Virus record (IMG/VR): IMGVR_UViG_3300042878_002960
Coordinates: 1 to 61,868 of that record
From: a virus
Strand: one strand, 5' to 3'
Length of the DNA stretch: 61,868 nt
The notes below the pieces were generated by a model. The model saw nothing but the letters and a program-made list of their open reading frames with translations. It was not told the origin of the DNA and ran no database searches. The position numbers were made by a program, and so were the translations under genes. Below, piece after piece: positions 19,034-21,662 of the stretch (the first letter of the stretch is position 1; the number at the start of each line of letters is the position of its first letter).

Positions 19034-19233
19034 TATATTAATTCAAATCTTTTTTGACCATGTTCAGAAGTTGAGTTCCAAATATCTAATGGTCTAACAT
19101 AAATAGAACCAAAGTTGATAGACTTGTAAACTACTAACTTTTCTCCTGTTTCCGTATGAGTGGCTAAAGTAATTACTTCATAAGTACCACCTTTATAATG
19201 CTTATATCTCTGTCTCGGTAGCGGATAGTTCAT
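19033..19233 (-). CDS. DUF1653 family protein
   Basis: 66 residues. RYKHYKGGTYEVITLATHTE, then GEKLVVYKS and YVRPLDIW match the DUF1653 family, small beta-barrel-like proteins of unknown function common in bacteria and phages. The gene overlaps the end of the Dam-type methylase by 32 nt on the same strand and touches the next gene, so it belongs to that operon. Confidence 0.85.
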   Translation of the reverse strand: MNYPLPRQRYKHYKGGTYEVITLATHTETGEKLVVYKSINFGSIYVRPLDIWNSTSEHGQKRFELI

Positions 19234-20185
19234 CTTGAATGTTTAATTTTTTACCAGTAACTGGATCGTAATTTAAAATTAATAACTCTACGCCTTTAGC
19301 TTGTTCACCTTTACCCTCAGAGTTATTACCACCTTGAGCTGAACTTCTAAATACTTCTTTCTCAGTCCAGATATATTGGTCTCTTGGTAACAATTCTTCT
19401 AATAAAGGAAAATAGTAATAAGATAATGACCAACGAGATTTTGATTTCTTAATTAAATCTAACAATCTTCTATGTGAAGCCGGACCAAACATACCTTCTT
19501 TGTCAGCACCATACCAAGATAATCTCTTAGCATCATCATCGCCATTCTCATCAGGTCTGTGATAAGGAGGATCCAAATACAAATAAGTATCTTCAGCATC
19601 ATATTGATTGATTAACTCTTCAAAATCAATGTTATAGAAGTCTGTAATAGTAGCCAATTTAGATGTGTACTTGTTCTTTTTCAATTTATCAATAAGAACT
19701 TCTAACTTCAAACGGTCTTTATCTTTCTTATAACCATTGAAACCGGCACCACGAGGATAAACCGAGTTATGTGCTGATGTGATTAAGAAAGCATAGATAG
19801 ACGCTTTTTTGAAATCACCAATCTCAAAATTCATATTATCTAAGAAATCGTTCTTAATATATCTTTTGTAAATCTCTTTATAGAAATCCCACTTCTTCAA
19901 TGGATCAGTTTCATCGGTATGAAGTAAAGTTCTTTTCAAAGCTTCTAAATACTTAACGAATTCTTCTGGTTGAGCACAACACTTGTATAGATTCGTCTGG
20001 TGACGATTTTTATCATTATAAACAACTACATCAAACTTTAGGTTTGGGTCGTCCATATACGTTCCCATAGAGCCAGAGAATGGTTCTATGTAGGTTTTTA
20101 TGCTACCATCTTTAGGAATTTTTGAGTTAATAAACTCAATGAAAACATTTGAGGACTTACCTCCGAAATATGAAATTACACTCAT
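19202..20185 (-). CDS. dam: DNA adenine methyltransferase (Dam / D12 class)
   Basis: 327 residues. It transfers a methyl group from SAM to N6 of adenine in DNA. The N-terminal SYFGGKSSN and IEPFSGSMGTY form the SAM loop (motif I), YNDKN is the next acidic position, and YLYLDPPYHR is the catalytic DPPY motif. The order SAM loop, target recognition, DPPY is that of the alpha (Dam) group. It lies 2 nt downstream of the NADAR gene. The likely role is protection of phage DNA from host restriction; T4 also carries a dam gene. Confidence 0.85.
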   Translation of the reverse strand: MSVISYFGGKSSNVFIEFINSKIPKDGSIKTYIEPFSGSMGTYMDDPNLKFDVVVYNDKNRHQTNLYKCCAQPEEFVKYLEALKRTLLHTDETDPLKKWDFYKEIYKRYIKNDFLDNMNFEIGDFKKASIYAFLITSAHNSVYPRGAGFNGYKKDKDRLKLEVLIDKLKKNKYTSKLATITDFYNIDFEELINQYDAEDTYLYLDPPYHRPDENGDDDAKRLSWYGADKEGMFGPASHRRLLDLIKKSKSRWSLSYYYFPLLEELLPRDQYIWTEKEVFRSSAQGGNNSEGKGEQAKGVELLILNYDPVTGKKLNIQDELSATETEI

Positions 20186-20187
20186 TA

Positions 20188-20691
20188 TTAATTTAATTTA
20201 TTTTTGTCTTTTATTATATCTTCGATTGAAGGTTTTTGATTTTGTAAAGAAATTTCTTCACGAACAGTCATTAAAATTTTACCAAGATTATTATCACCTT
20301 TACCATTACAAACTCCCCAGAAATAATCTTTCCACCAGTTACCTTCAATTAACTCTTGGCCACCAGTAGATAATAACATTTCAGATAAAGTTTCATCTTT
20401 GAACTTTTGGCGAACAGCCCAGTTCATTACTTCTAATTTCTTTTCATCCCAACCAGTTCTTAATTTTATTTTAGAACCAATCTTCTTAACTTCAGCAGGA
20501 TTAGAAATTCTAGCAATCATTTCACGAAAGTCACCTGGTGTGTAATATTTACCATTAATTAATTGTTGGTCATTAACTTTCATAGCAACATAAAAGTTCT
20601 CAACAGATGGGTAAGTAATACCCTGATGTTCTATTGTACAAGGGTAGAAGTTGGATAAGAATCTATAACGACCTTCAAATTTATCAATCAT
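20188..20691 (-). CDS. NADAR (YbiA-like, DUF1768) protein
   Basis: 167 residues. FLSNFYPCTIEHQGITYPSV near the start, YFWG near the end, the STGGQELIEG loop and a final helix with NNLGKILM are diagnostic for NADAR proteins, which act on N-glycosidic bonds of ADP-ribose-like or riboflavin-pathway molecules. Some NADAR proteins reverse ADP-ribosylation of DNA by DarT toxins, so a phage copy could be a counter-defence, next to a DNA methylase. That role is inference; the family call is secure. Confidence 0.85.
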   Translation of the reverse strand: MIDKFEGRYRFLSNFYPCTIEHQGITYPSVENFYVAMKVNDQQLINGKYYTPGDFREMIARISNPAEVKKIGSKIKLRTGWDEKKLEVMNWAVRQKFKDETLSEMLLSTGGQELIEGNWWKDYFWGVCNGKGDNNLGKILMTVREEISLQNQKPSIEDIIKDKNKLN

Positions 20692-20738
20692 ACTTATTAT
20701 ATTAACGAAAGGAATAAAGTTTACCTATTTAAAATAAC

Positions 20739-20760
20739 AAAAGACCATTACTGGTCTTTG
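20739..20760 (-). terminator. Terminator of the tmRNA gene
   Basis: Stem AAGACCA/TGGTCTT followed by T residues on the minus strand, starting 4 nt after the tmRNA 3' end. Confidence 0.75.
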
Positions 20761-20763
20761 TTC

Positions 20764-21146
20764 TTGTGGAGATGACGTTGTACTGCCCAACGTGTCTTTT
20801 TCAGTTGTTAATAATTATTCATTCACAGGCTTAGTAAATTTTTCTAAACTTACAAACTATTTACTTTTTTTGAGAAACTCTAACAAGTAACAAAAAACCG
20901 TTTCACCATTTTATTCTTGTGTGATACAAGTTGGAGAATTTTTTGATAGTAACTGTTGTTAGACAGTTGCTAGATCTTCTACCAAGATCATGTTGTTTTG
21001 TAGCGCAAATACTAAATCTTCATTGCTTGCTACTTCATTAACGTTGCCGTTTACAAATTTGTTACTTAATTTATTAATCGGATACTTAACCAACCGATAC
21101 CTGACATAATCACCACCATTCCGCAAATCAATTCTAAAACATCCCC
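20764..21146 (-). ncRNA. ssrA: Transfer-messenger RNA (tmRNA)
   Basis: This fills the only gene-free stretch over 300 bases. On the minus strand the RNA starts GGGGAUG at 21146 and ends CAUCUCC-A-CAA; GGGGAUG (21140-21146) pairs with CAUCUCC (20768-20774) with one G-U, a seven-base-pair acceptor stem. The next bases follow the E. coli tmRNA layout: a D-loop-like region, then GGUG...AUGUCAGGUAUCGG with a pseudoknot stem AUCGG/CCGAU. The 3' half has ACUAAGCCUGU, as in E. coli (ACUAAGCAUGU), and a T-arm CGUUG/CAACG (20776-20792). A tag frame runs from about GGC at 21048 to UAA at 20959, up to 29 codons. Odd points: the T-loop is GGCAGUA rather than UUCRANY, the 3' end is CAA not CCA, and the tag ends in Asp-Leu-Ala-Thr-Val, not Ala-Leu-Ala-Ala. 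It would rescue stalled ribosomes with SmpB. Confidence 0.85.
20959..21048 (-). other. Probable tmRNA tag reading frame
   Basis: The only frame without early stops in the mRNA-like part. Read from GGC AAC GTT it gives 29 residues ending in LVEDLATV. An alternative resume codon is GCA at 21030, after GAAGUA, giving a tag that starts ASNEDLVFAL, similar to the bacterial ANDENYAL. The resume codon cannot be fixed from sequence alone. Confidence 0.55.
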
Positions 21147-21163
21147 AAGTGTGTTATATTCTA

Positions 21164-21195
21164 CAAATATATATATAATATTCTAAAATAGCAAA
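21164..21195 (-). promoter_or_regulatory. Host-type promoter of the tmRNA
   Basis: On the minus strand TTTG (21192-21195), 20 nt, then TATATTTG (21164-21171). It fits the Bacteroidota housekeeping consensus and lies 17 nt before the mature 5' end at 21146. Confidence 0.65.
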
Positions 21196-21215
21196 AAGTT
21201 TAGAAATTTTAAAAA

Positions 21216-21662
21216 TTACCAAGGATAATCATCGTTCTTATCATCAGTAACTACACCATCTTTATCATCATCGTCTTCTAACATAAATTCAAATGTAATC
21301 ATAGGCGTACCTGTTTTAGTTTCCCATATTTCATAAGAAGAAGAATATTGAGCTAAAACGTCTTTTTTAATTTTTCTAACAATTTCAAATACTTTAACAA
21401 TATCACTAAGTGATTCTCTTCTAGCAAATTGAGCTGTAATAGATAAATCCAATCCACTATTTTCAACATTAACATCTACATTACTATTATTAAACATGGA
21501 TCTTAAAAGATAACAAAGATGTGACATATCATCATCTGAATCATCATCATCACCTTTATATTCATCTTCTCTTGAATAATCGTAATCATCTTCATAATCA
21601 TATCCATCGATATCATCAAAACCCTCACGTTCAAATAATTGATTAAATTTTTTAAGTTTCAT
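21216..21662 (-). CDS. Acidic protein with capsid-targeting-like N-terminus
   Basis: 148 residues. It begins MKLKKFNQLFEREG, similar to the shared N-terminal signature of this phage, then has a long Asp/Tyr/Glu-rich tract (about residues 17-50) and an alpha/beta domain of about 70 residues, and ends again with many Asp. Its start overlaps the stop of the upstream peptidase gene by 1 nt. Function unknown; packaging in the head is an inference from the N-terminus. Confidence 0.65.
   Translation of the reverse strand: MKLKKFNQLFEREGFDDIDGYDYEDDYDYSREDEYKGDDDDSDDDMSHLCYLLRSMFNNSNVDVNVENSGLDLSITAQFARRESLSDIVKVFEIVRKIKKDVLAQYSSSYEIWETKTGTPMITFEFMLEDDDDKDGVVTDDKNDDYPW

Follow-up and report, generated by a model that had tools for sequence, protein, structure and literature searches.

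The question raised by this locus is whether a stretch of phage DNA between two genes, to which standard models assign no tmRNA, encodes one all the same, and what the peptide tag that it would add to proteins might do. The window, by which we mean the whole 61,868-nt stretch of DNA that was analysed (IMG/VR virus record IMGVR_UViG_3300042878_002960), carries the candidate gene on its minus strand (Table 1), flanked by open reading frames at 20188-20691 and 21216-21662 and located downstream of a Gp23-like capsid gene and a gene described as 'peptidase' in PHROGs. An initial annotation, made from the letters alone, had proposed a phage-borne tmRNA here, with an unusual tag and T-loop. The reading frame directly downstream of the tmRNA (20188-20691) encodes a NADAR-domain protein (Pfam, 1.3e-24), and it is followed by a D12-class adenine methyltransferase gene (19202-20185).

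Detection of the tmRNA through its homologues

ARAGORN called no tmRNA gene in the window, and Rfam returned no tmRNA there at the gathering threshold or at E values up to 1, with one sub-threshold snoRNA match (E 0.12). The single-sequence fold energy of the window RNA was unremarkable (z -1.6), so that this fold told us little. The initial annotation had named the lack of a covariance-model match as grounds for rejecting a tmRNA, and, taken formally, that is the outcome in the window. We consider this to be the wrong test for this sequence because RF00023 and ARAGORN miss most members of its family. An nhmmer search with the window found homology along the full length of the RNA in a syntenic homologue, L019 (E 6.9e-28), which scores 57.4 bits against RF00023 (cut-off 47) and is also called as a tmRNA by ARAGORN. 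Since this homologue passes, the missing RF00023 match in the window represents a detection limit rather than a defining trait, and the absence of an ARAGORN or Rfam call is due to divergence.

RF00023 was run on 18 loci (4 + 14, under different E limits), with matches at five and no match at the other 13. Only L019 exceeded the cut-off, while L109, L074, L010, and L094 scored 38.2, 33.7, 30.8, and 27.9 bits (E 9.7e-12 to 2.2e-7). Across 116 loci, ARAGORN called four tmRNAs, two of which (L019 and L071) lie on one contig of this family and two (L042 and L084) belong to another group. The members of that further phage group, at L042:3842-4167 and L084:2024-2349, were called with the tag GKTKNVPVIEMITEMRAAA. 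Short RF00023 matches in huge genomes were ignored as probable tRNA genes, which share the same clan (CL00001).

The window stretch was also matched in two huge phage records, at 82.5% identity in LR745206 and 74.1% in LR756502, with 81% of the query covered in both cases. With these and 20 contig loci gathered through the protein neighbouring the window tmRNA, nhmmer found the RNA at 16 of 22 loci. The family set was enlarged by two DNA-pattern scans across viral contigs, the second of which used the tag itself as its pattern; L145 and L153, from a third scan, look like chance matches. A profile search of the 116 loci and the window gave 102 sequences scoring more than 100 bits; ten were partial, and the non-partial sequences were collapsed to the 59 rows of alignment A3 (MAFFT, no structure fitting). 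These rows hold 58 distinct full-length RNAs, as the window and L003 are identical and both counted. The ten partial loci and the weak matches L042 and L084 (22.4 bits, the other tmRNA group) had been left out beforehand. Some loci come from one contig, so the counts that follow are of rows and not of independent phages.

Conserved structure

Standard pairs fill 93.5% of 2504 pair cells in A3, compared to 28.4-49.8% when the partner strands are slid by 1-3 columns. Both-sided changes were observed in 30 of 43 pairs (17.2 on average in shuffled data), and not one of the five measures was reached in any of 500 shuffles. The acceptor helix is 98.1% paired, with both-sided changes in two pairs, and its third pair is G3.U70 in 57 of 59 rows; the two rows without it look alignment-shifted. 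The first stem of PK1 (helix 5) is paired in every row (100%), and the second (helix 6) is 76.3% paired, with both-sided changes in five of its seven pairs. The H5-like hairpin is only 63% paired in the MAFFT alignment because of indels, and we therefore re-read it without an alignment. A contiguous stem of at least 6 bp around the stop codon was found in this way in 36 of 59 rows, with shorter stems in the others, and the longest stem had a mean of 5.66, versus 4.11 with shuffled downstream sequence. The 7-bp acceptor stem, pseudoknot 1, and ACUAAGC-type segment of the initial annotation are all present and maintained across the family.

Table 1. Features of the tmRNA locus in the window (positions of the window; all on the minus strand)
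Feature	Position	Strand	Details
tmRNA gene	20764..21146	-	383 nt, encoded CAA included; from homology, alignment, and base-pair tests
-33-like element TTTTTG	21192..21197	-	20 nt from the -7-like element
-7-like element TATATTTG (TAnnTTTG)	21164..21171	-	25 nt before the tmRNA 5' end
Acceptor stem, 5' strand GGGGATG	21140..21146	-	7 bp with 20774-20768; third pair G.U
D-loop region TTTTAGAATTGA	21128..21139	-	A in the place of G18; numbering by tRNA analogy
Long helix H2, 5' strand	21106..21124	-	Helices 2 and 3: 13 of 14 pairs changed on both sides
Pseudoknot PK1, ATCGG/CCGAT and second stem	21058..21098	-	Helices 5 and 6
Tag frame with stop, ASNEDLVFALQNNMILVEDLATV	20959..21030	-	Start codon placed by the family register
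H5-like hairpin AACTGT/ACAGTT	20951..20968	-	Tag stop codon in the loop
Conserved 3' segment ACTAAGCCTGTGAATG	20820..20835	-	ACTAAGC from 20835; CCTG pairs with CAGG of 21103-21100
T-arm ACGTTG-GGCAGTA-CAACGT	20775..20793	-	6 bp and 7-nt loop; six of six pairs changed on both sides
Acceptor stem, 3' strand CATCTCC	20764..20774	-	Discriminator A 20767; encoded CAA 20766-20764
Terminator-like hairpin AAAGACCA-GTAA-TGGTCTTT	20731..20759	-	U-rich tail

The gene also has promoter-like and terminator-like flanks, in line with the initial annotation. A TAnnTTTG motif lies within 70 nt upstream of the tmRNA in 40 of 59 rows and is absent in 19, compared to 5.4% of shuffled upstream sequences, and in the window it forms with TTTTTG a promoter-like pair (21197-21164) that we take to be the Bacteroidetes-type promoter motif. 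Past the tmRNA, a terminator-like hairpin of at least 6 bp was counted, without a shuffled control, in 57 of 59 rows, including the one in the window (20759-20731).

A typical tmRNA T-arm has 5 bp and a 7-nt loop of the TTCRANY type, a typical rather than a defining feature. The window departs from this with ACGTTG/GGCAGTA/CAACGT. Reading the rows without an alignment, we parsed the T-arm as 6 + 7 in 45 of 58 rows, as the usual 5 + 7 in six, and otherwise in seven, with L051 unparsed; GGCAGTA is the loop in 30 of these 58 rows. Together, the 7-bp acceptor and 6-bp T-stem would stack 13 pairs instead of 12. The initial annotation was right that the T-loop GGCAGUA is unusual, but it overlooked that the T-stem has 6 bp rather than the usual 5, and likewise the SmpB and Clp partners in relatives that are described below.

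The base in the place of G18 (D18) and loop position 55 (T55) vary in concert. The 53 rows in which both could be read held A-G in 43, G-U in three, U-U in three, U-G in two, and A-C in two, counted as rows and not as independent events; we think that the two A-C rows are misread. A distant relative, L125 (the same gene as L155), keeps a normal T-loop, TTCGATT, and has a higher tmRNA score (83.6 bits), so the form with a 6-bp T-stem looks derived. We read the altered T-arm, with its extra base pair and G55 facing A18, as an elbow change that has been compensated and not as decay. Six phages gave no match to EF-Tu domain 3, which leaves no phage EF-Tu there to fit the longer arm. At the encoded 3' end, CAA occurs in 42 of 58 rows, CTA in nine, CCA in five, and CTG in two. 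The 3' CAA had been put forward as a distinguishing feature, yet an encoded CAA is ordinary: a figure legend in the tmRNA-database paper (PMC11915505) notes that this position is not always encoded as CCA.

The tag and its C-terminal end

A tag frame opens after AAGTA in all 59 rows and reaches a stop, at one homologous place, after 21, 22, or 23 codons, while the other two frames contain stops in 59 and 57 of the 59 rows. We infer the start position from this shared register and the conserved AGUA. ARAGORN places the start about 8-10 codons later in two relatives, giving ALQNNLLVVNELEVA versus GTSADLVAALQNNLLVVNELEVA in the family register for L019, and AKSKTTATQVEELEIA versus GSLSDILSVLAKSKTTATQVEELEIA for L125.

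The 44 rows found without the tag pattern yield 27 different tags, and D5, V7, and L10 occur in every one. Across their 23-codon tags, with ten rows of 21 or 22 codons excluded, pN/pS was 0.57, and by part it was 0.65 for codons 1-8, 0.42 for codons 9-16, and 0.61 for codons 17-23. Over codons 1-8, the shifted frames gave 1.10 and 0.59 (+2). As the +2 value is not above the in-frame 0.65, the test does not demonstrate selection on the protein over these first codons; this frame control weakens any case for protein conservation there, and the conservation of the first eight codons may be of RNA rather than protein.

As the initial annotation had noted for the window, the tags lack the LAA end. 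Among the 36 distinct tags in the family, the last residue is A in 19 and V in 17, and an AA end was found in none. That all 36 end in one of these two residues looks like a constrained C-terminal signal. In the wider phage group, an LAA end was seen in L147 (by eye) and L149, and a VA end in L146, L148, L150, and L152 (by eye) as well as in L151 and L154. Taken together with the ends of LR756504 and Lak phage C1 given below, this points to repeated loss of the AA end. Seven of these loci (L146, L147, L148, L150-L152, and L154) form a second phage tmRNA group, in which the tag of L147, read by eye as GKTHTHIANTNSIFAVTGTVVDSGVALAA, ends in ALAA. Of 16 Bacteroidota genomes reached through the phage SmpB, 13 were found to have a tmRNA; eight of the ten tags called by ARAGORN end in AA, and the other two look like misreadings. 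Among the literature matches listed (open PMC papers), we recognised none that deals with these tags or with the 6-bp T-stem.

SmpB and Clp partners in large relatives

SmpB was found in six of the eight largest records tested first, the misses being the two smallest (201 and 173 kb), and in both further huge genomes tested, LR756504 and LR756501. One of these eight, the 508-kb G002, carries a normal-loop tmRNA and is not a member of the family set. SmpB was found in one of 14 smaller records with relatives and in none of five further small records. In the family records that carry both genes, of which there are five, ~128-210 kb separate SmpB from the tmRNA, so small fragments would often miss it. 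The phage proteins are at most 53% identical to bacterial SmpB, among 80 listed of 573 bacterial loci.

ClpP was likewise present in six of the eight records tested first, the misses being those of 385 and 201 kb, and the ClpP of L131 passes its NCBIfam equivalog cut-off (406.5 versus 361). Six of the eight also encode a Clp-type AAA+ protein (about 710 residues), with the 201- and 173-kb records the misses, as for SmpB. It has two AAA modules and a UVR motif, with the first AAA match preceded by fewer than 85 residues and no Clp_N domain among the matches listed (25 of 28 Pfam families), and it carries a GVGF motif at what we take to be the place of ClpC's ClpP loop. Its scores fall below the NCBIfam cut-offs for ClpA and ClpB, so we call it Clp-type only. 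The zf-C4_ClpX zinc domain was found in none of nine records. SmpB, ClpP, and the Clp ATPase were thus seen in large relatives, and the window's own phage is known from 62 kb.

The presence of the Clp ATPase was considered as a correlate of the tag ending and did not track it cleanly. LR756504 has the ATPase together with a tag that, by eye, seems to end in VAA, so the protease set and the tag end are not strictly linked. LR756501 has the ATPase, and ClpP was not found there by tblastn.

Interpretation

From the homology to L019, the covariation, the G3:U70 pair, and the open frame that is kept, it is close to certain that the window RNA is a tmRNA, as first annotated. Across dozens of phage sequences, the predicted tRNA-Ala-like domain, PK1, the H5-like hairpin, and a frame ending there have been maintained, and because its parts are kept up the RNA likely works in trans-translation. 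The best explanation, to which we give a probability of roughly 0.75, is a working phage-encoded tmRNA whose tag is most likely a proteolysis signal re-addressed away from LAA. The host AlaRS would charge the phage tmRNA through G3:U70, with CCA added beforehand, and SmpB, either the phage's or the host's, would deliver it where translation has stalled on a broken mRNA. Up to 23 tag residues would then be appended and the ribosome freed at the stop codon. Since the tags always end in A or V, they most likely still act as a proteolysis signal, and this constant end, together with the Clp parts in large relatives, is why we favour a re-addressed degron. It would probably be directed to the phage Clp-type ATPase and ClpP, or to a host Clp that binds it with another affinity.

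A weaker signal read by host ClpXP would fit almost equally well. In that case, to which we allow a real but minority chance, host ClpXP or host Lon would read the tag as a weakened degron and the phage Clp proteins would serve elsewhere. The A or V kept at the end of all 36 distinct tags agrees with this, as do the AA ends of Bacteroidota tags (eight of ten ARAGORN calls), and the LAA retained in the relatives L147 and L149 suggests that the derived tags moved away from LAA by degrees. Degradation is slower with the engineered tags LVA, AAV, and ASV, which counts in the same direction. However, this reading does not need a phage-borne Clp ATPase and ClpP and hence leaves them unexplained.

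The initial annotation had instead suggested rescue of ribosomes without destruction, the products being left intact or marked for another fate. We consider this improbable. The lack of an AA end in all 36 distinct tags speaks for it, but the constant A or V suggests that the C-terminus is still read, and the large relatives carry Clp parts. Still less probable is a decoy or decaying tmRNA that would bind SmpB or ribosomes without tagging, like the short RNA of mycobacteriophage DS6A, which consists of the TLD only. Inhibition of tmRNA by a DS6A-like molecule has been demonstrated (PMC4131195), and the non-canonical T-loop and T-stem length would suit one, but the frame, stop codon, and PK1 are retained with compensatory changes, and large relatives encode SmpB. 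Chance resemblance in a structured untranslated region, to which the modest folding energy and the lack of an ARAGORN or Rfam tmRNA match in the window might point, is refuted by the RF00023 scores of the homologues and by the covariation.

Returning to the re-addressed degron, a more elaborate version is that huge Bacteroidetes phages run a private line of trans-translation and proteolysis, in which a tmRNA with a 13-bp acceptor/T arm is fitted to the phage's own SmpB, the long tag is read poorly by host ClpXP, and the phage's own Clp ATPase and ClpP read the A or V end and perhaps the conserved upstream part. We offer this tentatively and regard it as doubtful; if true, the phage would decide which stalled products get destroyed during infection. 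As the long tags never end in AA, phage redirection of the fate of tagged proteins becomes directly testable, and a naturally occurring tmRNA whose T-arm is longer and whose elbow covaries provides a test of what SmpB and EF-Tu tolerate. Our results also indicate that phage tmRNAs are under-counted, with most of this family missed by standard tools, even at published huge-genome loci.

Comparison with known tmRNAs

Huge phages are known to carry tmRNAs and SmpB. The parts of Al-Shayeb et al. 2020 (PMC7162821) that concern them report both, predict replication in Bacteroidetes for five genomes of more than 634 kb, and assign tmRNAs with ARAGORN 1.2.38; these passages contain no account of tags. 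LR745206 and LR756502, the DNA relatives of the window, are, we infer, genomes of that study, and ARAGORN 1.2.41 called no tmRNA at their loci. For viruses, the 2025 tmRNA database used RefSeq, as its description states (PMC11915505). Another huge phage, LR756501 (735 kb), has a tmRNA at L353:18159-18731 that scores 21.1 bits against RF00023, below the cut-off (E 5.9e-6), seems to carry a group I intron (RF00028, 96.1 bits) close to its 3' end, and was missed by ARAGORN. Such introns are already on record from the T-loop of tmRNA genes (PMC11915505).

Lak phage C1 (MK250029), a huge Prevotella phage, resembles the family in having SmpB and matches RF00023 at 49.4 bits, while its tag ends in MAA and its T-arm is TCCGG-TTCGACT-CCGGA (both by eye). 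Its tmRNA (L358) is above the Rfam cut-off, yet it was missed by ARAGORN. The tmRNA of Bacillus phage G is also phage-borne, and its tag, AKLNITNNELQVA, ends in LQVA and lacks LAA. The non-LAA phage tag had been thought new in the initial annotation; with phage G already in ARAGORN's own table, it is not unprecedented. Phage G differs in its phage and host, its 13-residue tag, its ordinary T-arm (GCGGG-TTCGACT-CCCGC), and in being found by ARAGORN.

The closest bacterial likeness is to the one-piece tmRNA of Bacteroidota (RF00023), with which the family shares the G3.U70 acceptor, the ACUAAGC-like segment, PK1 before the resume codon, a Gly or Ala resume codon, and a tag stop in or near H5. 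The Bacteroidota tags called have nine residues and end in LAA or MAA (GENNYALAA, GESTYAMAA, and others). The phage-family tags, unlike these, run to as many as 21-23 residues without a final AA, and the phage tmRNAs differ further in their 6 + 7 T-arm (45 of 58 rows) and in matches to RF00023 that are sub-threshold or absent at 17 of 18 loci.
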